Below are positions 1 through 64,000 of a stretch of 64,000 nucleotides of DNA, piece by piece. How positions within the stretch are numbered: the first letter of the stretch is position 1; each line of letters begins with the position of its first letter. A program made the position numbers and the translations under genes. The notes under the pieces were generated by a model. It was not told the DNA's origin. It worked only from the letters and a program-made list of their open reading frames with translations, and did no database searches. The DNA comes from a bacterium (GTDB taxonomy: Bacteria > Campylobacterota > Campylobacteria > Campylobacterales > Sulfurimonadaceae): positions 62,001-126,000 of the forward strand of contig JAHJJX010000021.1 in assembly GCA_018822665.1 (NCBI GenBank), read 5' to 3'.

Positions 1-141
1 TGCTTTAATAATATCGATAAGCTCTTGCGGAGTAAAAGTGAAAAGTTTTTCTAAGGATGCATAACGACCGTTTTGAAGTGCAACCGCCAAAGTCTCGGCA
101 TGTGGAATCTCAAAGTTTTTGCTCACAATTTTAGTTTGCAT
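1..141 (-). CDS. nuoF: NADH-quinone oxidoreductase subunit F, 5' end only
   Basis: Only the first 47 codons are in the window; the rest lies beyond the left edge. The ATG overlaps the 3' end of nuoE by 11 bases. The visible residues read [20 protein letters not shown] and then end with an FTPQELIDIIK-like segment, which in NuoF proteins lies just before the FMN/NADH-binding glycine-rich loop. NuoF carries FMN and cluster N3 and oxidises NADH. Position after nuoE and partial similarity support the call, but no catalytic motif is visible. Bases 97-107 hold one copy of the repeated 11-mer described in the findings. Confidence 0.75.
   Translation of the reverse strand, partial: MQTKIVSKNFEIPHAETLAVALQNGRYASLEKLFTFTPQELIDIIKA
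97..107 (+). repeat. DUS-like 11-mer GGCATGTGGAA, inside nuoF
   Basis: Exact copy of the over-represented 11-mer. On the coding strand it is read through as Ile-Pro-His-Ala. Confidence 0.7.
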
Positions 142-574: not shown

Positions 575-2217
575 CTGTCCATCTCCCCTGCAATAATATT
601 AAGACTTCCAAGTGTCAAAATAGCATCTGCAAGCTGTGCTCCCTCAATCATCTCAGGATAGGCACTCATCGCAGTAAAGGACGGAGCTTTTACCTTTACC
701 TTGTAAGGAGTGCCGCTTCCATCACTCACAATGAAAAAACCAAGCTCCCCGTTTGTCGCTTCTATGGAGCCGTAATGCTCGCCCATCGGAACTTTTACAC
801 CCTCAAAAACGAGCTTAAACTGATTCATCGCACCCTCTATTGTTGTATAAACCGCCTCTTTCTTTGGCAGAGTAATGGATGCATCTTGAATATTTACTTC
901 ACCCTCAGGCAGATTTTGCATCACCTGTTCTATGATTTTTATGCTCTCATCAATCTCGCCAAAACGCACCATAACTCTGTCGTAAACATCGCCGACACTG
1001 CCCACTACGACATCAAACGCATACTTCTCATAACCATAATACGGTGCATCTTTTCTCATATCAAAAGTAACTCCACATGCCCGAAGATTTGGTCCCGTCA
1101 TTGCATAACTCAGAGCATCCTCCGCACTTATCACACCTACATTTTGAGTTCTCTCATGAAATATTCTATTGTGTTTTATGAGTGAGAGCGTTTCTTGTAC
1201 TCCATATTGAACTTTTTTAATGACCTCTTTTAAATCATCTTCAAAGCCTTCATACAAATCATTCGTCATCCCGCCGACGCGCATGTAGGAATTTGTGAGC
1301 CTTGCACCCGTGAGTTTTGAGAGCAAATCGTAAATATCTTCTCTTGGATTATACATATACCAGTAGTTTGTAAGTCCGCCCATATCGACCAAAACCGCCG
1401 CAAGACAGACAACATGGTCTTCAATGCGTGAGAGTTCAAGAAGCATTACGCGAATCGCCTGCGCGCGCTTGCTAATTTCTACTCCAAGCATATCCTCCAC
1501 TGTTTTTACAAAGGCAATATTATTGCTGATTGCAGAGCAATAGTTGAGTCTGTCTGTGTAGGGAACGATTTGATTGTAGGTGTGGTTTTCACAACTCTTC
1601 TCAAAGCCTCGGTGCAGATAACCGATTTCACTCACCGCACACTCTATTGTCTCCCCGTCAAGTGCAACATAGGTTCGTATAGTTCCGTGACTTGCGGGGT
1701 GCGATGGTCCAAGATTTAAGAACATTAAATCTTTATTGCACTCGCTAAAATTGCCGCTCTCGAGCTTACAGACAACATCTTTAGAGAGAAGTCTGTTGTT
1801 CATCTCATCCATTAAATCATCGGTTTCATAAAGAAACTGACCCTTTGTAATCGGGTAAGATTTTCTCAAAGGATGTCCTACAAACTCTTTATGATTGAGA
1901 ATACGTCTTAGATTCGGGTGATTCTTAAAAACAATGCCGTATTGGTCAAAAACTTCCCTCTCAAGCCAGTTTGCACCTTTAAAAAGATAGGAAACAGAGT
2001 CGCTCAGCAGAGTGTTTAAATATGTTTTAATAACAATATGCTCTTTAAAATTTTGATGACGGATAATATAGACTAAAGCGAACTCTTCCTCTTGGTTTTT
2101 AATATACTCACTGTAGTCGATTGCGGTAATGTCCAACAGATAAATAAAACCATCTGCATATTTGTTCTGTATAAATGCATGCAGCTTGGCATGTGGAACT
2201 GTTAGTATCTCAGACAT
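571..2217 (-). CDS. nuoCD: Fused NADH-quinone oxidoreductase subunits C/D
   Basis: A single polypeptide joins NuoC (about residues 1-130, with the signature [13 protein letters not shown] near residue 85) to NuoD (from about residue 165, starting at [10 protein letters not shown]). NuoD forms the quinone-site floor and NuoC the peripheral-arm connector. I chose the ATG at 2217, which overlaps the nuoB stop by eight bases, over an in-frame TTG two codons earlier. The CD fusion contrasts with the separate nuoC and nuoD genes at 30.6-32.6 kb, so the two operons are not recent duplicates. Similar fusions occur in Enterobacteria and other lineages. Confidence 0.93.
2188..2198 (+). repeat. DUS-like 11-mer GGCATGTGGAA, inside nuoCD
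   Basis: Exact copy of the over-represented 11-mer, read on the coding strand as Val-Pro-His-Ala near the NuoC N terminus. Confidence 0.7.
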
Positions 2218-7022: not shown

Positions 7023-7047
7023 GGCATGTGGAAGTTTTTCACATGCC
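7023..7047. terminator. Hairpin built from an inverted pair of the 11-mer repeat
   Basis: An exact GGCATGTGGAA (7023-7033) faces a one-mismatch inverted copy ending at 7047, giving an 8-bp GGCATGTG/CACATGCC stem plus weaker pairs. It lies between the convergent porin and bcp genes, so it could terminate both. Confidence 0.6.
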
Positions 7048-8156: not shown

Positions 8157-9172
8157 CCAATACTCTCCGCGACATCTCTTATCATTTTAATTGCCACATC
8201 CTCACTTGAATATTCCAAAAGTTTTTTACTCTTTTGTGAGAGATTCTCATCCAAAAGAGCAAGGAGTCTGGAACTTAAATCTTCACTCTCGCGCTCACAC
8301 CAGCCTAATTGATTCTCAACGATAAATCTTGCATTAAAATACTGATGGTCGCCCGCAGCGTAGGGATAAGGCACAAACAAAGCCGGCAAACCATTTGCGC
8401 ATAATTCCCAAAGAGTGCTGGCTCCCGAGCGACTCACCGCCAAGTCGGCATGTGGAATGAGATTTGCCAGCTCTTTTGTAAAACTATAAAGTTCAACTTC
8501 CACCCCTTTTTTTACATATTCTTTTTGCACTCTCTCAAAATCAGCCTCACCGGTCTGATGTATGATGCGAATACCTTTTTTATGAAGTTCAGGTGCTACC
8601 GACAAGGCCAAATCATTGATAGCTTTTGCCCCCTGCGAGCCTCCCAAAAAGATAATAGTTTGAATATTTTGTCTGATTCTTGCATTTTTATAAAAAATTT
8701 TTTGAACAGGATAGCCTTGAATAGGTGAGTTTTTATCATAAGCGGAAATAAATCTTTTTGCAAACGGTTTTAAAAGCGAATTTAACTTTCCCTCTACCGC
8801 ATTTTGTTCATGGATAAAAAAGGGAATTCTTTTACTGATAGAGGCGAAAGATGCAGGTGCAGCAGAAAATCCCCCTACACTGTATGTTGCCTGAATCTTA
8901 TGTTTTTTAAGAAGCTTTCTTGAAGCTAAAAACGCTTTAAAAACTCTCCACAAGGCCTTTAATTTTGCAAAACCTTTTTGATTGACAACTCCCGTTGTTT
9001 CTAAAAAATAAACATGGCTAAAGGAGCTGTAATGCTCAAAGTATTTTCTGTCTGCTCCGCTGGTAGAACCAATAAAAATAACTTCGTGCCCCTGCGAAAT
9101 TGCAGCTTCAACTAAAGCAGAAGCTATCATCAAGTGACCGCCTGTGCCGCCTCCGGTTATGCATAACTTCAT
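8153..9172 (-). CDS. murG: UDP-GlcNAc--lipid I N-acetylglucosaminyltransferase
   Basis: MurG adds GlcNAc to lipid I to form lipid II on the inner face of the cytoplasmic membrane. The 339-aa protein starts with the glycine-rich loop ITGGGTGGHLM and has the IHEQNAV acceptor-side motif and a C-terminal donor-binding GASTLWEL segment. It lies 40 bases after ftsW, a pairing kept from the division-cell wall cluster, although the rest of that cluster is not here. It carries an exact 11-mer repeat at 8447-8457. Confidence 0.96.
   Translation of the reverse strand: MKLCITGGGTGGHLMIASALVEAAISQGHEVIFIGSTSGADRKYFEHYSSFSHVYFLETTGVVNQKGFAKLKALWRVFKAFLASRKLLKKHKIQATYSVGGFSAAPASFASISKRIPFFIHEQNAVEGKLNSLLKPFAKRFISAYDKNSPIQGYPVQKIFYKNARIRQNIQTIIFLGGSQGAKAINDLALSVAPELHKKGIRIIHQTGEADFERVQKEYVKKGVEVELYSFTKELANLIPHADLAVSRSGASTLWELCANGLPALFVPYPYAAGDHQYFNARFIVENQLGWCERESEDLSSRLLALLDENLSQKSKKLLEYSSEDVAIKMIRDVAESIG
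8447..8457 (+). repeat. DUS-like 11-mer GGCATGTGGAA, inside murG
   Basis: Exact copy, read on the coding strand as Ile-Pro-His-Ala. Confidence 0.7.
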
Positions 9173-12345: not shown

Positions 12346-13236
12346 ATGAAACAACTCGCACTTATAGGTCCAACAGCCTCCGGAAAAAGTGATTTAGCTC
12401 TGAAAATCGCAAAAAAAACAGATGCTTATATATTATCCATTGACTCACTCAGCATTTACAAAGAGATAGATATCGTCTCGGCAAAACCTTCGCGCGAAGA
12501 GCTGCAAAGCGTCAAACATTTCGGCATAGATGCTTTGTATCCGAATGAACACTTTAGTGTAGATATTTTTATAAATATTTATAAAGATGTTCTTTGCACA
12601 TGCCAAAAAGAAAATAAAAATCTCATCATAGTAGGGGGAACTTCTTTTTATCTTAAATCCCTTCTGCAAGGGCTTTCATCTCTTCCGACAATCACGGATG
12701 AAATATCCTGGCATGTGCAAAAGCAATTAAATAATTTGCAAAGTGCTTATGAATATTTATATAAAATTGATGCGAACTATATGAAAAATATTAGTCCAAA
12801 AGACACATACAGGATAGAAAAAATGCTTCTTATTTATGAAGCATCAAAACTTTCACCTACCGACTGGTTTTTAAAGAATCCGCCAAAGCCAATCATAGAG
12901 AATGTAGATATCTATAATATTGAAGTAGACAGAGAGATTTTAAGAAACAGAATATCTCAAAGAACTTCCAAAATGCTTTCTCTTGGACTTATCGATGAAA
13001 TTTGCTATTTGGAACAAAAATATACAAGATTTCCACATGCCATGCGTTCCATAGGTGTTGTTGAAGTTTTAGAATTTTTAGATGCAAAGGTGAGCAAAGA
13101 GAAGATGCAGGAAAATATCTCAACGCATACGGCTCAGCTTGCAAAAAGGCAACAAACTTTCAACCGTACACAATTTGAAAATACGACCTCCGCTTCACTT
13201 GGGGAGCTTGAGAAAATTATTTATGCGCATTTATAA
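12346..13236 (+). CDS. miaA: tRNA dimethylallyltransferase
   Basis: MiaA adds the dimethylallyl group to A37 of tRNAs reading UNN codons. The 296-aa protein has the P-loop GPTASGKSDLAL (residues 7-18), the DSLSIYKEIDI region equivalent to DSxQVYR, and the C-terminal QTFNRTQF segment. The predicted transcript is leaderless. It converges on the TM2 gene with only three bases between the stops. It contains one exact repeat (13031-13041) and two one-mismatch copies (12594-12604 and 12710-12720). Confidence 0.94.
   Translation: MKQLALIGPTASGKSDLALKIAKKTDAYILSIDSLSIYKEIDIVSAKPSREELQSVKHFGIDALYPNEHFSVDIFINIYKDVLCTCQKENKNLIIVGGTSFYLKSLLQGLSSLPTITDEISWHVQKQLNNLQSAYEYLYKIDANYMKNISPKDTYRIEKMLLIYEASKLSPTDWFLKNPPKPIIENVDIYNIEVDREILRNRISQRTSKMLSLGLIDEICYLEQKYTRFPHAMRSIGVVEVLEFLDAKVSKEKMQENISTHTAQLAKRQQTFNRTQFENTTSASLGELEKIIYAHL
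13031..13041 (-). repeat. DUS-like 11-mer, inside miaA
   Basis: Exact GGCATGTGGAA on the minus strand; in miaA the plus strand reads Phe-Pro-His-Ala. Confidence 0.7.
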
Positions 13237-26085: not shown

Positions 26086-28330
26086 GTACTACTCTCATTA
26101 TTTTGGATTTTTCAAATCTATATCTACTGGCATCTACAACATCATCAAAAGTAGGATTTAATGCTATTGTCCCTTTTAGATTATTATCTAGTTTAAAATC
26201 TCTTGTAATCATCTTAGAGCCAAATCTTATTTCAACTCTGTCCCCATCAGAAATTTTTGCACACGCTGCAAACTGAGCTGAACCCCTCAGCGCAGTATCT
26301 TTTTCAAGCTGTTTAGCTATATTTGTATAGGCATTAAACTGTAAAACAGGATTTGAATTATATATTACAGTGCCATTAAACTCCGGTAAGTCCTCTATGG
26401 ATTCCAGTTCACCGCTTATGCTGCATTCAACTTCATCAAGAAGATAACCTCTCACGTCATCTCCAAGAGGAGAAAGATAATTCTCTAAAGAATCAAAGTT
26501 AAGATTCTTAAAGCCTGATTTAGGATTGAGCATACTTGTATAATCAATAGTATTTTTGCTATTGATTCCACATGCCGAAGCTAAATCATTTAAAGTATAT
26601 CCATCAAAAGAGACAGACACATTTGTTGGCAGCACTCTATTGTCTATACTTACAAAAGTCCCCTCTTGTTGATTGAGTGCGGGAACTGCAAGATTTGCAA
26701 ATTTTAATGAAGAGATTAAAAAATTACCCCTTGCATTGTATCCGACTACATCAATAATATCTTCATCTTTATCTAATTCTGCAATAAGAGATACACCAAG
26801 TGTATTTACTTCATTTGGCACAACAACCAAAGAGAATGTAGTGTATTTTTCAATCAATGCAGCTAGTTTGGCAATATTTAAGGCTCTATCATGAGCAATG
26901 AGATCATTTCCTATAATTAAAATGCGGTTCTTTGCTCTTGAAAATGATTTCATCATCTGTAAAATTTCTTCATGTCCAATGTTGCTTTCGGCTTCAAGAT
27001 AACCTAAATCAAGTTCATTAAAAAATGCTCTCTCTGCATCTGATAAATCTGCTTCTTGAAGTATTGCGTTTGCCAAAAGTGCTAAAACACCCTCTTCCGT
27101 TCCGACTTCATATTTCATAAATTGAGTTACGGTATTTTGCAGCAATGCGTCTTCAAGAGGGTGTGCATATACTATTTTGGCTCCATTATGCTTTCTGGCC
27201 GTTGTAATCGCATATCTCACACCAGGATTATCCGTAGCTATTCTTGTGCCGATAACAATAATCGCATCTGCTTGTTTAATTGCGTCTAGAGAACCGCTAT
27301 GGTGCTTTTTACCACTAACACTGCTATAAGAATTCATAAACTCTTGGAACTTTCTAGCATCTTCATTAAATAACTGAATTCCAAGTTTTTCTTTTAAAAG
27401 TTGCAATATATGTGCTTCTTCATTTGTTATCATTGAGGAAAAACGGATAGCTTTTGCATTTTTTAAAGCATCAACAGCCTTAACGAAAGCGTTTTCATCT
27501 TTAAGTGCTCTGTTTTCAAAATCAAAACCAAATCGCCCTGCACCACACAAAGATGTAAATTCAAAATTATTTTTTACTCTGAAAATAGATTCAAACCCAT
27601 TATCAATTCCTGAATATTTTGTTTCATATTCCAAAGAGCACCCTGCCGAACAGTGTGCGCACGTAGCCGGTACACGACGAAGTTCCCAAGCATTTGCACT
27701 ATACTGAAAGTTTGAACTCACAAGCGCGCCAACCGGACAAACTGCGATACATTCACCACAAAAAGTACAATCAAGCGTATCGGCATTTTTAGGAATTATG
27801 GTGGAACTGTATCCGCCAAACTTGACATCAATCGCATCATCACCGATGACTTCATTACAAACGTGAACACATTTTTCACATAAAATACACAAAGACGGAT
27901 CATAATTAATCAGTCCCCAATGTTCAATTTTACGAGCTTGGTCGCGCGCTGTAAAGTTTTGCTGAGCAACACCAAACTCTAAAGTTTTATTTTGAAGGTC
28001 ACACTCTCCAGATTTGTCACACACGCCACATTCTAAAGGATGGTTCACATCATAAAGCTTCATAATATTGATTCGTTCATTTTCAAGTTCTTTTGAATTT
28101 GTCGTAATCTCTATTCCCTCAATAGGAGGAGTGTTACAACTCAAAACGAATCCATTTACATCTTTGGCTTCAACCACACACATACGACACGATGCACACG
28201 GAGTAGTTTTAGATATGTAACACATTGTTGGTATATAGATGCCATTTTTTCGGGCTACACTTAGAATAGTTTCGCCTTTTTTAGCTTCAACTTGGATACC
28301 GTCAATTTTAAAATTAATCAAATCATTCAT
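26078..28330 (-). CDS. nuoG: NADH-quinone oxidoreductase subunit G, second tandem copy
   Basis: A 750-aa NuoG homologue with the same metal sites as its neighbour: CYISKTTPCASCRMC, HPLECGVCDKSGEC, CILCEKCVHVC, CTFCGECIAVCP and CAHCSAGC...SLCGAGRFG. It follows the NuoF/GltD-like flavoprotein by 13 bases. Conserved architecture but clear divergence suggests an old duplication in which both copies stay functional. One copy might be the structural complex I subunit and the other part of an input module for another donor. An exact 11-mer repeat lies at 26566-26576. Confidence 0.9.
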   Translation of the reverse strand: MNDLINFKIDGIQVEAKKGETILSVARKNGIYIPTMCYISKTTPCASCRMCVVEAKDVNGFVLSCNTPPIEGIEITTNSKELENERINIMKLYDVNHPLECGVCDKSGECDLQNKTLEFGVAQQNFTARDQARKIEHWGLINYDPSLCILCEKCVHVCNEVIGDDAIDVKFGGYSSTIIPKNADTLDCTFCGECIAVCPVGALVSSNFQYSANAWELRRVPATCAHCSAGCSLEYETKYSGIDNGFESIFRVKNNFEFTSLCGAGRFGFDFENRALKDENAFVKAVDALKNAKAIRFSSMITNEEAHILQLLKEKLGIQLFNEDARKFQEFMNSYSSVSGKKHHSGSLDAIKQADAIIVIGTRIATDNPGVRYAITTARKHNGAKIVYAHPLEDALLQNTVTQFMKYEVGTEEGVLALLANAILQEADLSDAERAFFNELDLGYLEAESNIGHEEILQMMKSFSRAKNRILIIGNDLIAHDRALNIAKLAALIEKYTTFSLVVVPNEVNTLGVSLIAELDKDEDIIDVVGYNARGNFLISSLKFANLAVPALNQQEGTFVSIDNRVLPTNVSVSFDGYTLNDLASACGINSKNTIDYTSMLNPKSGFKNLNFDSLENYLSPLGDDVRGYLLDEVECSISGELESIEDLPEFNGTVIYNSNPVLQFNAYTNIAKQLEKDTALRGSAQFAACAKISDGDRVEIRFGSKMITRDFKLDNNLKGTIALNPTFDDVVDASRYRFEKSKIMRVVHE
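26566..26576 (-). repeat. DUS-like 11-mer, inside the second nuoG
   Basis: Exact copy in the coding orientation, read as Ala-Cys-Gly, a different codon frame from the Pro-His-Ala sites. Confidence 0.7.
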
Positions 28331-28343
28331 ATATCCAACTCCC

Positions 28344-30344
28344 TTACGTAGCTATCATAGCAATATAGTAACATCGCATACAACGATCAGCTTCACTCAA
28401 TGCTTGCTCTTGCGTAAAGCCCAAGTTAACTTCTTTGTTATTAAATTTTCTAATATCAACACCCAGTATCTCACTATGCTCACGAGGAAGCCCAGGCAGC
28501 CAACCGCTTACCTTTTCTTTTTTGTTATACACTTTTAATTTGCGAAGATGATCTTCCATAATCTCATCATCACTTAAAGTAATTTCACCTGTTTGCACAT
28601 ATCTTGCCATTACGGAAGCCCCGCGTTTTGCTTGGCCAACTGCATTTACAATAGTCATTGGACCATATTCACAATCTCCTGAAGCAAAAATTCCTTTGCG
28701 CGAAGTCATATAATCTTTACCGTTTGTTTTTATAGTTCCCCAAGAAGTCATCTCAATTTCCCATTCTTTTGGGAGTAATTTAAGGTCAGCACTTTGAGAA
28801 ACCGCAGGAACAAGGAAATCTGTTTCTATCTCATAAGACGCACCATCAATTTTCACAAGCTGTGCACGCCCGCCGTCTGGGTCGGGAACTAATTCAAACT
28901 TGTCAATAAGAAGAGATTTTAAGACATCATCTTCATCATTCATCACGTTAACTGCCGAGTGGAATAAAAATTCCACACCCTCTTCAACAGCCTCATGATA
29001 CTCTTCATAGGTTGTATTGTTAATTATAGTTCTCTCATCTCTACGATAAACCATATAAACTTTTTTAGCATTGGCTCGAATTGCACATCTTACAACGTCC
29101 ATTGAAGTAAATCCGCCGCCGACACAAACAACTGTTTTTCCGGTTAAATCTACCGCTTCACCAATGCCGTATTTGTCCCAAAGATTAATTTGGTCAAGCA
29201 TCTCGATGGCCGACCAATAACCTTTGATTTCAAATCTTTCATTATCGCAGTAAACTTTTTTAGAGATACGGGTTCCCGTAGCAACCATAGTTGCATCATA
29301 TTCCGTCTCAAATCTTCTCATATCGTCGGCAGTTATTTTTGTGTTTACTATGAAATTAACCCCCATGTCTCTAACACATTCAATATCTTGATTATATTTA
29401 TCAATCGGCATACGGTATTCAGGCACGCCTACAGCGACTTCTCCGCCTAAAACAGGCAGTTCTTCATACACGTCTACTTCTATTCCCTCAGCCGCTAAAT
29501 AATAAGCTGTCGTAAGTCCGGCGGGGCCTGCGCCGATTACTGCGACTTTTTTATCAATAGATGCTTTTTTCTCCATTGGATGAAAAAAGTCGAATCCATG
29601 ATCTGTTTCCCAATCTGCACCCAAACGTTTAAGAGCCATTATAGAAATCGGCTCATCAAGATTGGTTCTTCTGCATGCATCTTCACAAGGATGTGGACAA
29701 ACACGTCCGCATACATGAGCAAGAGGCATAGTTTGACGCGTCGCTTCAAGTGAATCATCAAATCTTAAATCTCTAACACCCTCAATATATCCTGGAATGT
29801 CGACATGCGCTGGACAAGCATCAGTACAAGGCGCAGTTATCTTGGCGATATATCCTACACTTTCATTGTAATGCTTTGACGGTTTTTGATTGTTGATACA
29901 ATCAAGAAATACATCTTCAAAGTGTGTCATCAAATCTAAAATAGGATTTGGAACTGTTTTACCTATCTCACATTTAGAAGTAATTTGCATACTCTTGCCA
30001 ATCTCTTTTAAGTGATCCAAATCAGAAACACTACCTTCACCACGAGCAATCTTATCTAATTGATCATATAGAATTCTTCCACCCCAACGACCAGGTGCAC
30101 ATCTTCCACATGCCTCAGAATACTCTTGGTATTGTGCAGCATATTCCATAGCTAAACGGATTACATCTACATCTGCATTAAATAACGATACACCGTCCCA
30201 GCCTATAAAAGCTTTAGATTCACGGTGAGAGTCATACTGTGCCGGTAGGTTATAAGCTGATTCTTCCCACTCTTCTTCAGGCTTATTGACATTATTTATC
30301 AGCTCACCATTCCAAGTAGAAAAATAGACTTTACTCACAATCAA
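28344..30344 (-). CDS. NuoF C-terminal-like Fe-S domain fused to GltD-like FAD/NAD(P)H oxidoreductase
   Basis: The 666-aa protein occupies the nuoF position. Residues 70-150 resemble the NuoF N3-cluster domain, but the Cys-x2-Cys-x2-Cys motif reads CGRCAPG (C79, C82, then Gly85), with a further Cys at 125. Next comes a glutamate-synthase small-subunit-like part: Cys-rich CTDACPAHVDIPGY and CGRVCPHPCEDAC, an FAD fingerprint (VIGAGPAGLTTAYYL), an NAD(P)-binding GGGFTSMDVV and a C-terminal GIFASGDC. It probably feeds complex I from NAD(P)H or ferredoxin; that is inference. Start is TTG at 30344 or GTG two codons on. Confidence 0.85.
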   Translation of the reverse strand: MIVSKVYFSTWNGELINNVNKPEEEWEESAYNLPAQYDSHRESKAFIGWDGVSLFNADVDVIRLAMEYAAQYQEYSEACGRCAPGRWGGRILYDQLDKIARGEGSVSDLDHLKEIGKSMQITSKCEIGKTVPNPILDLMTHFEDVFLDCINNQKPSKHYNESVGYIAKITAPCTDACPAHVDIPGYIEGVRDLRFDDSLEATRQTMPLAHVCGRVCPHPCEDACRRTNLDEPISIMALKRLGADWETDHGFDFFHPMEKKASIDKKVAVIGAGPAGLTTAYYLAAEGIEVDVYEELPVLGGEVAVGVPEYRMPIDKYNQDIECVRDMGVNFIVNTKITADDMRRFETEYDATMVATGTRISKKVYCDNERFEIKGYWSAIEMLDQINLWDKYGIGEAVDLTGKTVVCVGGGFTSMDVVRCAIRANAKKVYMVYRRDERTIINNTTYEEYHEAVEEGVEFLFHSAVNVMNDEDDVLKSLLIDKFELVPDPDGGRAQLVKIDGASYEIETDFLVPAVSQSADLKLLPKEWEIEMTSWGTIKTNGKDYMTSRKGIFASGDCEYGPMTIVNAVGQAKRGASVMARYVQTGEITLSDDEIMEDHLRKLKVYNKKEKVSGWLPGLPREHSEILGVDIRKFNNKEVNLGFTQEQALSEADRCMRCYYIAMIAT
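30104..30114 (-). repeat. DUS-like 11-mer, inside the NuoF/GltD-like gene
   Basis: Exact copy in the coding orientation (Ala-Cys-Gly), overlapping the first Cys of the Fe-S motif. Confidence 0.7.
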
Positions 30345-35823: not shown

Positions 35824-35865
35824 AATTTTCTTTGGCATGTGGAATTCCACATGCCAAAGAAAATT
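35824..35865. terminator. 42-bp perfect palindrome made of two head-to-head 11-mer repeats
   Basis: Two exact copies of GGCATGTGGAA (35834-35844 on plus, 35845-35855 on minus) abut and their flanks are also complementary, giving a 21+21 perfect palindrome. It lies 32 bases after the AAA ATPase stop, in the position of a transcription terminator. The A/T-rich arms provide a U-rich end on either strand. Confidence 0.75.
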
Positions 35866-35896: not shown

Positions 35897-37633
35897 TTAC
35901 TTGTTTAAAAATCCCATAGATTTTTCACTATCAAAATTTGCATCCTTTTCTCTTTGTATCTCATCTATAAAATCATTTAACAAGAAAATCGGATTTTCAC
36001 GCACCGCTACTTTATATGCTGTATTTTTTATTATTAAATTAATCTGTCCACCCGTTAAAGAATACTTCGATAAAGGCAAAATATCAAATCCTTCTTCGTA
36101 TGGCGCATCCGCAGGGAGCATTTTACTCCAAAGCTTTGCTCTTTGATCTTCGTCAGGCTTTTTAAATTCTATCTTATAGTTAAATCTTCTTGAAAATGCT
36201 TTGTCTATATTTTCAAGTAAATTTGTAGTGGCAATAAGCATTCCTTTAAAATTTTCTATCTGTTCTAAAAAAATATTTTGCATTTGATTATGCATTTGGT
36301 CTGCGCTAGAGCCTATCCCGCTCGAACGAGAGCTTAAAAATTGATCTGCTTCATTTAACAAAAGTATGGGCTCTGTTTTTGTTTTCTCGCATAAATCATA
36401 AAAAGTGTCAAAAATCTTTCGAACATTTTTTTCACTCTCTCCGACATACATCGAAAGAATTTTAGAACAGTCAAATGCAAGGACTTGGCGTTTGAGAGAT
36501 TTTGCCAAAGAATAGGCCGTCATCGTTTTACCGGTTCCGGCAGCACCGTAAAAAATAATTCTGGCATCTATTCCGCTTTTTTTATCTTTAATACCCCATT
36601 TAACAAGACGGCTTATTACTTCTTTATCGACTTGACGCATAAGATTTTGCAAGGTCTCTTCTGTTTTTTTATTTAAGACAACATCATCCAGCGAAGTTTC
36701 AGGTTCAATTAGCTCAAAGATATCCTGCTCATCCATCAGTGAATTTAGTTTTAAACGGCGCACTTTTTTATTTTTTTGAGGATGGATTATGCTTTGCAAT
36801 ACCTCATCAACTATATAAAAAGATCTCGATATTCCTCCAAAAGGATTTAACATCTCCTCATAATCTATAATCCCCTCACCAATAAGATTGGAGCCATCTT
36901 CAAGAAGTGAACGATTTTTGATTCTGTCGTATTCATCCAAAGAGATTAAGTCAATGAGTGCGTTCATCTCTCGGAGTGAAGTATCCGCAGCGCTGTACTC
37001 CTCGCGAAGAAGGGCTATGAAGATAACTTGTTCTTTCGATTCCATCTTTTTTTGTTTAAAAAATTTATCTAAAACAAGATTCTGAGATGTTTGGAGCACT
37101 CTGTCTTGTATCCGCTTTTCAAGCAACTTCAATTTATTTTGGACTCTGTCTATTCCCAACGAATGCTCATGTACATTTTGACGAATCACACTCATTTTTT
37201 GATAAAGTTCAATTCTAAAAAACTGATCCTGCAGGTACTCTAAGTGGTCCAAATAGGGTTTGATATCCGGAAGGTCCATGTCCAGAGTACCGTCTTGAAG
37301 AAGTTTTAAAAGTGAAGGGGCAAGTCCCACTGCCGTGTTTAACAATTCTAAAGGGGTAACTTCAGATATTTTCATAGGCGTAAAACTTTGTTGATGCAAC
37401 CAGCCCAGCTCTAAAAGAATTTTCAACTCTTTTAGATGCTCAAGATACTCATAATTGCTACTCTCATAAAGCTCTTGCAAGAGTTCAAGGACTAAAACAT
37501 CATCCTGACCTTGCATATATCTTTTTGCTAAAAACTGAAGCATATATGCTTCAGCAACACTGCATTTTAAATGCGTGAAGATTTGAGATTTTTCAATCTC
37601 TTTTGTTTCTAAAAAATCTACTAATATTTTCAA
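35897..37633 (-). CDS. AAA-family ATPase
   Basis: A 578-aa protein. The first 300 residues are alpha-helical with no family I recognise; the C-terminal half is an AAA module with Walker A GAAGTGKT (residues 363-370), a Walker B-like LLLNEAD (residues 424-430, Asn in place of the first Asp), arginines in SRSSG and SRRFN, and sensor-2 region. It resembles ATPases annotated in Campylobacterota as AAA family without function. The start appears to be UUG behind AAGG. It follows the FadL gene by 19 bases. Confidence 0.8.
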   Translation of the reverse strand: MKILVDFLETKEIEKSQIFTHLKCSVAEAYMLQFLAKRYMQGQDDVLVLELLQELYESSNYEYLEHLKELKILLELGWLHQQSFTPMKISEVTPLELLNTAVGLAPSLLKLLQDGTLDMDLPDIKPYLDHLEYLQDQFFRIELYQKMSVIRQNVHEHSLGIDRVQNKLKLLEKRIQDRVLQTSQNLVLDKFFKQKKMESKEQVIFIALLREEYSAADTSLREMNALIDLISLDEYDRIKNRSLLEDGSNLIGEGIIDYEEMLNPFGGISRSFYIVDEVLQSIIHPQKNKKVRRLKLNSLMDEQDIFELIEPETSLDDVVLNKKTEETLQNLMRQVDKEVISRLVKWGIKDKKSGIDARIIFYGAAGTGKTMTAYSLAKSLKRQVLAFDCSKILSMYVGESEKNVRKIFDTFYDLCEKTKTEPILLLNEADQFLSSRSSGIGSSADQMHNQMQNIFLEQIENFKGMLIATTNLLENIDKAFSRRFNYKIEFKKPDEDQRAKLWSKMLPADAPYEEGFDILPLSKYSLTGGQINLIIKNTAYKVAVRENPIFLLNDFIDEIQREKDANFDSEKSMGFLNK

Positions 37634-40252: not shown

Positions 40253-40263
40253 TTCCACATGCC
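40253..40263 (-). repeat. DUS-like 11-mer, intergenic, downstream of nfo
   Basis: Exact single copy in the gap between the lipase upstream region and the endonuclease IV stop. No inverted partner is present. Confidence 0.7.
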
Positions 40264-41116: not shown

Positions 41117-41594
41117 TATCGCTCCTCTGCTGCATATCTTTTATTTTTATTAAAATATTATTTTTTTTATCTTTAAAAAAGATGGCATGTGGAGCTACGG
41201 TATAAACTATTTCCACATGCCCATTGCTTATATGTTGCTCAAATCCATTGGCATGTCGGAGTATATTTTCACCTCCATATATAACATGTCCCAAAAGTAT
41301 GTTTTGCAGTATATCGCTCGGATAAAATGCGCTTAAGTAATTTTCATTAAAACTTCCCTTACTCATGCAACCTTCACGGACACAAACAAGGTGATTAATA
41401 TTGATTTTTTCTATCACTTTGCCTGCAATAAAGAGCTCAAGTTCTATACTCTTTTCATTATTTCTTATGTAACCGAGATCTGCAAATTTAATTTTAGGTG
41501 ACTTAATGACGATTACTTTTGCTTGGGTATGTTCATAATTTTTAACGCTGCATCCGCCAAATATTAGAGTAAACATAAGTAAAATATATTTCAT
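41106..41594 (-). CDS. Small lipoprotein, unrecognised
   Basis: About 162 aa. I chose the ATG giving [15 protein letters not shown] over a GTG three codons earlier, because it begins the lipoprotein signal (lipobox FGGC). The mature part is mixed alpha/beta with two Cys in CVREGC and no known domain. It is coupled to a coiled-coil exported protein upstream and to nfo downstream. The repeat occurs twice inside it (41184-41194 with one mismatch, 41211-41221 exact, inverted). Confidence 0.7.
41211..41221 (-). repeat. DUS-like 11-mer, inside a lipoprotein gene
   Basis: Exact copy in the coding orientation, read as His-Val-Glu. It faces a one-mismatch copy at 41184-41194 across 16 bases, so the pair can form a hairpin inside the gene. 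Confidence 0.7.
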
Positions 41595-44799: not shown

Positions 44800-44843
44800 G
44801 ACCTCTTTTGTAAATTAGCACTTACTAATTTACAAAAGAGGTC
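44800..44843 (-). promoter_or_regulatory. 19-bp perfect hairpin between rpsG and fusA
   Basis: Nineteen perfectly paired bases with a six-base loop. There is no U tract after it, so an RNase III processing or mRNA-stabilising site is more likely than a terminator. A second stem (CCTGGCC/GGCTAGG, 44854-44873) sits between it and rpsG. Confidence 0.6.
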
Positions 44844-58070: not shown

Positions 58071-58080
58071 AAAAATCAAT

Positions 58081-58112
58081 AAACAAGTTCTAGTCATAAC
58101 TAGAACTTGTTT
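58081..58112 (-). terminator. 13-bp hairpin between rpmG and tRNA-Trp
   Basis: Two perfectly complementary 13-base arms (AAACAAGTTCTAG / CTAGAACTTGTTT) with a six-base loop, followed on the minus strand by a T-rich stretch. It resembles a rho-independent terminator after tuf-rpmG, or a processing site before the tRNA. Confidence 0.65.
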
Positions 58113-58125
58113 ACCAGATGTAATA

Positions 58126-62081: not shown

Positions 62082-64000
62082 CTACTTCGTAGTCATTTTA
62101 TGCACACCCCAAGGATGTCTCTCTTTTACAAGCGGTAAAAAATATTTTGATGGATTGTCATCATATTTTTCTATTACACTAGAAAAAAGTTGCTCTGCAC
62201 TTTCAAAATCACCTTTTATATATCTCTCCAATGCTTCATCATATGACTTTTTCAGCTCTTTTGCTTTATCTGTATTTGGCATCAGCTCATACAAAAGCAC
62301 TGCCTTTTCTTTTCCTTTTACCATTACAGGTTCAATCATTCTATATGTAAATGGATCTTTTAATTTAGCAACCGTAAACTCCGTTATCAGAATATTAACA
62401 CCATAATTTTTAGTCAAACCTTCAACTCTTGAAGCTAGATTGACTCCATCTCCGATGATTGTATAATTAAATCTTGTATCTGAACCCATATTCCCCACAA
62501 CGACTTCAGCCGTATTGATACCAATACCAATCCGTATAGGGCTTATTCCTTCAGATTTTAACTGTGTATTTAAAATGTCCAATTCACTAATCATCCTCAA
62601 GGCAGATCTGCACGTCGCATCCGCATGCTTTTCTACATTTACGGGAGCATTAAAAAATGCCATCACGGCATCCCCTATATATTTATCAAGCATGCCGCCA
62701 TTCTCAAGTACAGCATTTGTCATTGGAGTAAAATATCTGTTTAATAATTTAATTAAACTTACCGGACTCATAGATTCTGATATGCTCGTAAAACCTCTAA
62801 TGTCACTAAAAAGAATACTCAATTCCTTGCTTTCTCCACCTAATTCTAATGCTTTTGGATCATCTATAAGTTTTTGCAGTAAATCGGCAGAGAGATAACT
62901 TGAAAAGGCATCTCTCATAAATCTGCCGCCTCTTTCTTGAATGTTAAATGCTATTGCTTCAACGGCAACTGTACTTAAGAGTAAAGAAACTAAAGGGTAA
63001 AAAAGATCAATGTAGATCATATCCACTACAAATAGATATCTTATAAATATATATAAAGCCGTATATGCCAAAATATTGACAACAACTCTGTATAAAATCT
63101 TTTTAATAATTAAAACCAATAAAAAAGGCAATAAAATCATCAAAACCATCAAAGCAGGAGTGATATTTTCAGGTTCGACAATAAGATGATTTTGTAAAAG
63201 ATTTGAAATAAAAGTATAATGCAGCAATGGACCTGCAATAGCACCGATGGGCGTACTCACAACGTCCCCCGAACCAACTTCCGTAATTCCGAGTATTACA
63301 ATCTTGCCTTTGAAATATTCTGGTTTTATTTTTTGATTTATAAGATCTAAAAAAGAGATGATTTCATATTGCTCCTGCTTATAGTAGTTTAGTCTTATAA
63401 AACCTTTATCATTGAGTCCTATATTATGCGTGTTAATTTCCACATGCCTCGTATCCAGCCTTTTAACATCCCTATTGAATTTTAGCCTTAGTCCTTGAAT
63501 AGCTAAAGACGGGTATAGAATATTTTGAAAATATACGGCTATAGGATAGGAACGAAGCAGATGGTCACTTCCGGCGAGAGTCGAAAAACTTCCAGAAAGT
63601 GTACAAGCTTCCAATATTGGAAGAATATTCATTTCGGCATAAGGTGCTGAAACAAAAAATGGATTTTTATGTTCTGCTATTTGTGATTGGAGTATATCCA
63701 AAGAAGAGTTGCTTAAAACCTCCAACTCTTCCTCACTGATATTTTGTGTTGCGTTTTGTCTAAGAAAAAATCCACATACGCTATTGTTTAAGCCTGACAA
63801 TGCCTGAACCAGCGCACCATCTTGAGATTGCGTCGTAGGTTCTGAGAAAATCATATCCATCAAAACCACATCGGCTTGCGCCAGTGATTCGATGCCCTTT
63901 GCCAGTATTTCTCTCTCCCATGGCCATCTGCCGTACTTGTTTACACTTGGTTCGTCCACTGCAACAAAAACCACATCTTTGCTTGGTTCTTTTTTTTGTA
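62082..64000 (-). CDS. CHASE2-domain class III adenylate cyclase, 5' end missing
   Basis: The reading frame is open to the right window edge (residues before 63974 read ...EPSKDVV and continue the CHASE2 strand), so the gene starts outside the window and a GTG at 63974 is not the start. Order: periplasmic CHASE2 sensor, about three membrane helices, catalytic domain with FSDIRGFT and GDAVMAFF (metal Asp), DKYIGD Lys and TIIGDGVNLASR, the adenine-type specificity pattern. It makes cAMP in the cytoplasm on an outside signal. Confidence 0.88.
   Translation of the reverse strand, partial: QKKEPSKDVVFVAVDEPSVNKYGRWPWEREILAKGIESLAQADVVLMDMIFSEPTTQSQDGALVQALSGLNNSVCGFFLRQNATQNISEEELEVLSNSSLDILQSQIAEHKNPFFVSAPYAEMNILPILEACTLSGSFSTLAGSDHLLRSYPIAVYFQNILYPSLAIQGLRLKFNRDVKRLDTRHVEINTHNIGLNDKGFIRLNYYKQEQYEIISFLDLINQKIKPEYFKGKIVILGITEVGSGDVVSTPIGAIAGPLLHYTFISNLLQNHLIVEPENITPALMVLMILLPFLLVLIIKKILYRVVVNILAYTALYIFIRYLFVVDMIYIDLFYPLVSLLLSTVAVEAIAFNIQERGGRFMRDAFSSYLSADLLQKLIDDPKALELGGESKELSILFSDIRGFTSISESMSPVSLIKLLNRYFTPMTNAVLENGGMLDKYIGDAVMAFFNAPVNVEKHADATCRSALRMISELDILNTQLKSEGISPIRIGIGINTAEVVVGNMGSDTRFNYTIIGDGVNLASRVEGLTKNYGVNILITEFTVAKLKDPFTYRMIEPVMVKGKEKAVLLYELMPNTDKAKELKKSYDEALERYIKGDFESAEQLFSSVIEKYDDNPSKYFLPLVKERHPWGVHKMTTK
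63438..63448 (-). repeat. DUS-like 11-mer, inside the adenylate cyclase gene
   Basis: Exact copy in the coding orientation, read as His-Val-Glu. Confidence 0.7.

Follow-up and report, generated by a model that had tools for sequence, protein, structure and literature searches.

Sequence-specific DNA uptake signals were described in 2025 as known only from the Neisseriaceae and the Pasteurellaceae (PMC12616744). The DNA uptake sequence (DUS) of the Neisseriaceae comes in eight dialects, all of which hold a CTG core (PMC3630211), and the USS of the Pasteurellaceae is built around GCGG (PMC12616744). In Neisseria and the Pasteurellaceae, paired uptake signals favour the orientation that provides A- and T-tails (PMC1852404). 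Campylobacter jejuni takes up DNA only if it carries methylation at RAATTY, through a T2SS/T4P-like system (PMC10046745). A literature search, with preprints and subscription papers outside its scope, found no work on uptake sequences in Sulfurimonas, Campylobacterota or Epsilonproteobacteria, and of 15 papers matching the 11-mer considered here, searched as text, the five listed were eukaryotic studies.

We analysed a 64-kb stretch of DNA (the window) from a Sulfurimonas (Campylobacterota) genome of 2.5 Mb in 44 contigs. Its commonest 11-mer is GGCATGTGGAA, present in 12 copies where Markov models of orders 1-4 expect 0.01-0.05 (Table 1). Genome-wide there are 662 copies, divided 328/334 between the strands, and the reversed word used as a control occurs once; hundreds of copies on both strands, far above chance, are what defines the abundance of a DNA uptake sequence. 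Aligned copies from 464 kb of sampled sequence share an extended profile of approximately cTTGGCATGTGGAAAtt in A/T-rich surroundings. Copies with one mismatch (same 464 kb) cluster at positions 9 (G to C) and 11, which suggests tolerated positions and not uniform decay. Two GGCATGTGCAA variants lie in opposite orientation 105 bp apart at 12594-12604 and 12710-12720 of the window; the G-to-C change at position 9 that they carry is among the commonest single variants of the genome sample.

Table 1. Features of the window, with positions counted from its first base
Feature	Position	Strand	Remarks
42-bp perfect palindrome	35824..35865	.	as RNA: 20-bp stem, 4-nt loop
GGCATGTGGAA uptake-like 11-mer, first copy	35834..35844	+	
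GGCATGTGGAA uptake-like 11-mer, second copy	35845..35855	-	head-to-head, abutting first copy
Left flank AATTTTCTTT	35824..35833	.	pairs with right flank
Right flank AAAGAAAATT	35856..35865	.	
AAA ATPase gene	35897..37633	-	ORF; PF00004; ends 31 bp before palindrome in its own direction
Small ORF, 59 aa	35555..35734	-	no Pfam match; downstream of palindrome
GGCATGTGGAA copy	97..107	+	
GGCATGTGGAA copy	2188..2198	+	
GGCATGTGGAA copy	7023..7033	+	head-to-head with one-mismatch copy at 7037-7047 (-)
GGCATGTGGAA copy	8447..8457	+	
GGCATGTGGAA copy	13031..13041	-	
GGCATGTGGAA copy	26566..26576	-	10-mer core kept at orthologous site in L032 and L040
GGCATGTGGAA copy	30104..30114	-	in coding ORF; 10-mer core identical in 5/5 aligned relatives
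GGCATGTGGAA copy	40253..40263	-	
Second inverted pair (GGCATGTGGAG ... TTCCACATGCC)	41184..41221	.	within an ORF
GGCATGTGGAA copy	63438..63448	-	

The resemblance to the Neisseriaceae system is one of organisation: 10-12-mers that number in the hundreds to thousands and occupy both strands, dialects that differ between relatives, and inverted pairs near gene ends. The word itself is unrelated, since neither GGCATGTGGAA nor its complement contains CTG; the phylum is different, and the Sulfurimonas pairs have neither T-tails nor an orientation bias. In the Neisseriaceae the receptor is ComP. With the USS it shares a short abundant word, A/T-rich flanks and pairs that form gene-end hairpins in some cases, but GGCATGTGGAA lacks GCGG, and its flanks give a T-tail in neither orientation whereas those of the USS do so in the preferred one. 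By sequence, GGCATGTGGAA would thus be neither DUS nor USS, and it appears DUS/USS-like as far as genome anatomy tells.

The machinery for natural transformation is encoded. ComEC was found in 123 of 135 genomes of the genus, the host genome included, and the host carries a T2SS/T4P-like cluster with a secretin, a T2SSE ATPase, T2SSF and pseudopilins; some 10 kb away from comEC lie three prepilin-like genes. From its genes the host would have what DNA uptake calls for (ComEC, secretin, T2SSE, T2SSF and prepilins), and C. jejuni takes up DNA through the same kind of T2SS/T4P-like system (PMC10046745). Counted on the other side, many comEC-bearing Sulfurimonas are without a demonstrated abundant word. 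The kinship with C. jejuni, of the same phylum and with a similar uptake machine, also raises the possibility of a methylation-linked signal like RAATTY, in which a methyltransferase acts on the word and recognition depends on the mark instead of the bare word. Palindromic words of relatives such as TACATGTA would suit a methylase. Discrimination in C. jejuni (CtsM) concerns a 6-mer recognised through its methylation, whereas GGCATGTGGAA is long and non-palindromic with a sharp extended profile closer to DUS and USS; we consider a methylation signal unlikely here.

The word was surveyed in 71 genomes of the same genus, the host's own left out, and in the order. It is abundant in two (595 copies in G071, and 318 in G045, a genome 65% complete), intermediate in three (83 in G068, 50 in G041 and 33 in G036), and near zero in the remaining genus and order genomes surveyed. 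Other Sulfurimonas carry other words, namely YAAACGCAG, CTTAGCATCA and TACATGTAG/A. YAAACGCAG reaches at least 100 copies in 29 Sulfurimonas genomes (range 106-1453, highest in G167) and is apparently a second uptake-like word in this set (G167, G014, G054, G156, G135 and 24 others). Its distribution in G123 is strongly asymmetric, with 90 forward and 15 reverse copies, unlike in the other genomes rich in this word, perhaps owing to a tandem array. CTTAGCATCA has 911 copies in G155 (seen also in L110) and at most 37 in any other genome of the genus. The near-palindromic TACATGTAG and TACATGTAA (L278-L297, from G032 and G119; L059) are roughly 25-35-fold over expectation, with 75 copies of TACATGTAG in 240 kb of G032 (2 expected) and 104 of TACATGTAA in 240 kb of G119 (4 expected). 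In their variety among relatives these words may be likened to uptake dialects, which they resemble. The stretch CATGTnGAA is common to GGCATGTGGAA and TACATGTAGAA, and CTTAGCATCA (reverse complement TGATGCTAAG) is similar to TAGATGCTAA of G170; we treat both likenesses between words as leads only. AGATGCWA-like words are over-represented in G181 and G170 (L298-L317) and possibly reflect a weaker dialect or coding bias; these AGATGC-rich words were too degenerate to be called an uptake-like word. Separately, a 138-bp periodic repeat bearing TGTCCAACGAAAAGCTT occupies about 17496-18048 of L105.

Context statistics were drawn from stretches totalling about 0.86 Mb (862 kb) with 811 genes called by codon score. 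Unpaired sites fall in coding sequence in 209 of 253 cases, and density per kb is 0.26 in coding sequence, 0.25 in divergent gaps, 0.78 in co-directional gaps and 2.3 in convergent gaps. Dispersed copies and inverted pairs could also mark a mobile repeat family of the REP/REPIN or MITE kind. Such a family should have a conserved unit beyond the core and lie mainly between genes; the conserved unit is only about 11-14 bp with nothing longer around it, and with most sampled single sites coding we rejected this explanation as very improbable. Hundreds of copies across the genome would equally be expected of a site for a chromosome-handling protein (Chi, KOPS, Noc or MatP type). Replication-strand bias is absent, with 132 sites leading and 147 lagging when the leading strand is assigned from local GC skew, and a polarised Chi/KOPS-type site was dismissed on this count. 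Housekeeping chromosome sites are usually stable between lineages, and the word changes greatly between lineages of one genus. Together with the absence of GGCATGTGGAA from two accessory stretches, this makes a chromosome-handling site improbable, a little more so than a methylation signal.

These two accessory stretches, the longest free of GGCATGTGGAA and the only two examined, span 29.7 kb (defence and conflict genes) and 25.7 kb (a cellulose-synthesis cluster). An uptake sequence should occur in core genes and intergenic DNA and be rare in DNA acquired recently, and we count their lack of sites in favour of an uptake function. Against it we count the below-average GC of both, and that the length of one is within reach of random placement: with sites placed at random in the contig concerned, the 29.7-kb gap lies above the 99th percentile of longest gaps, and the 25.7-kb gap does not. 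The longer one (G000:C20:179968-209662, L169-L170) is low in GC and encodes a conflict-type histidine kinase, an iREC, a NERD/Schlafen-like helicase and WYL proteins, and by its gene content is likely a defence island.

Relatives located through the neighbouring AAA ATPase are almost all labelled Sulfurimonas. At several orthologous sites the 10-mer core is unchanged in relatives of 75-79% aligned nucleotide identity (5/5 at 30105, 5/8 at 41184 and 2/3 at 26567). The chance of ten bases staying unchanged is less than a tenth, with coding constraint contributing at some sites. In L046, L042, L040 and L038 the end of this AAA ATPase gene is likewise followed by inverted copies of the word, or of a close variant, in differing arrangements. 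On the AAA ATPase tree bearers of the GGCATGTGG label, the window among them, group together (5 changes, where shuffles give 10.5), and the label turns up again in a second, separate genome pair. Taken together, copy number, strand symmetry, motif profile, conservation at orthologous sites and competence genes strongly support the premise of the first-pass annotation, that this would be an uptake-sequence genome, and GGCATGTGGAA is most likely a tag for recognition of the cell's own DNA during uptake.

The most conspicuous use of the word in the window is AATTTTCTTTGGCATGTGGAATTCCACATGCCAAAGAAAATT at 35824-35865. This palindrome is perfect, its 21-bp arms meeting without a loop, and no other perfect inverted repeat of the window is as long. 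Two abutting 11-mers make up its centre, and 10 further bases on each side are complementary. That annotation had described exactly this arrangement, in sequence, coordinates, paired flanks and position just after an AAA ATPase gene, and all of it holds: the palindrome begins 31 bp beyond the stop codon of this minus-strand gene, with the next small ORF about 89 bp further on. Its 34-bp core occurs once in the genome. Folded as RNA it has a predicted energy of -29.4 kcal/mol (z -7.5), and no known RNA family was found at the site. Two other long inverted repeats of the window, at 44800-44843 and 58080-58113 (arms of 19 and 15 bp), are not built from the 11-mer.

Exact searches with the 10-mer gave 25 head-to-head and 23 tail-to-tail listings, or 47 distinct pairs where about 5 are expected. 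Pairs are intergenic in 40 of 47 cases, against 44 of 253 unpaired sites outside coding sequence (P about 3e-19); 20 of the 40 lie between convergent genes, 18 in co-directional and 2 in divergent gaps. Convergent gaps are 13% of intergenic gaps, so that pairs are enriched there (P = 2e-8). Other inverted pairs at gene ends, on which the terminator proposal of the first-pass annotation depended, are therefore common in this genome. We count these 47 pairs, and the long stems described below, in favour of reuse as RNA hairpins.

Pairs could also be uptake sites and nothing more, lying side by side where the gap tolerates them and playing no part as RNA. Single sites are themselves concentrated between convergent genes (2.3 against 0.26 per kb in coding sequence), and 15 of 43 unpaired intergenic sites are there, so that the excess of pairs (20/40) is only suggestive at P = 0.066. 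Direct close pairs are in excess too, and sampled pairs in YAAACGCAG genomes are mostly coding (23/29); both count against the uptake and hairpin reading preferred below. Two observations are harder to accommodate with uptake alone. In the 862-kb sample inverted pairs outnumber direct ones (21 versus 9, with 1.6 expected for each), and the stems extend beyond the word more than chance gives. Flank pairing in head-to-head pairs averages 2.08 bp versus 0.90 bp in re-dealt flanks, a value reached in 0 of 5000 shuffles (P < 0.001); tail-to-tail pairs average 2.09 versus 1.57 bp (P = 0.012), and those of sister genomes 2.31 versus 1.68 bp (P = 0.007). The paired flank at 35824-35865 is the longest among the 25 head-to-head pairs (10 bp versus 0.9 expected). 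Uptake without an RNA role is accordingly a possible but secondary explanation.

The first-pass annotation had further proposed that the pair serves as a transcription terminator. This is supported in part only. Its location at a gene end and the extra-long stems (permutation P < 0.001) fit a 3'-end hairpin, and the stronger preference of pairs than of single sites for convergent gaps is only suggestive (P = 0.066). A canonical bidirectional Rho-independent terminator composed of a pair of uptake sequences, of the kind seen in Neisseria and Haemophilus, would have precedent (PMC1852404), and the long GC-rich stem core of the palindrome and the convergent setting of half the intergenic pairs would fit. 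Like such a terminator the palindrome forms a stable hairpin just past a stop codon, but the T-rich tract that should follow the stem is missing. On both strands the motif is preceded by T and followed by A, so that in either pairing the stem has T ahead of it and A behind it, the reverse of a terminator's T-tail. Among the nine bases after the stem T has the same share, 0.32, on the gene strand as on the opposite one. A terminator scan made no call at 35824-35865 and reported 6 terminator-like sites, fewer than the 10.6 in shuffles. Neither orientation is preferred among the 47 pairs (25 head-to-head versus 22 tail-to-tail), where Neisseria has a strong bias (PMC1852404), and this, with the absent T-tract, also weighs against the uptake and hairpin reading as a whole. 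Predicted hairpins at other gene ends of the host are rare (20 of 361) and T-poor, so that this genome may not rely on canonical terminators. A canonical terminator was dismissed on the missing T-tail, and we regard it as doubtful. Given a strong stem, no T-tract and no scan call, a 3'-end hairpin is therefore favoured; it may act by termination without a T-tract, by Rho-linked trimming, or by protecting the mRNA.

Our preferred reading is that GGCATGTGGAA would be a DNA uptake sequence or its functional equivalent, and that the pair at 35824-35865 has been reused as a 3'-end RNA hairpin; on the genomic evidence we put its probability at about two in three. A receptor on the competence pilus would bind GGCATGTGGAA and favour uptake of DNA from kin, and uptake with recombination would spread and maintain the word. 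At 35824-35865 two copies stand head-to-head, and their flanks would have evolved to pair. The AAA ATPase transcript would consequently end in a 20-bp hairpin, which we infer helps to set the 3' end of the mRNA or to protect it. That related genomes have abundant words of their own also counts in favour of this reading.

In summary, we suggest that Sulfurimonas may have evolved sequence-specific uptake independently, as the first case outside the Neisseriaceae and Pasteurellaceae, with at least four dialects (GGCATGTGGAA, YAAACGCAG, CTTAGCATCA and TACATGTAG/A), and that at least the GGCATGTGGAA lineage reuses pairs as gene-end hairpins without a T-tract. We give this joint proposal somewhat better than even odds. 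If true, this would be a third instance, of independent origin, from a different phylum and from a chemolithotrophic genus living in the environment. With several words present in closely related genomes, one could study how uptake signals arise, change and isolate species, and the receptor could be looked for by seeing which variable pilins go with which words. The copies in pairs would offer a test of how uptake signals come to be used at transcription ends when the motif brings no T-tail.
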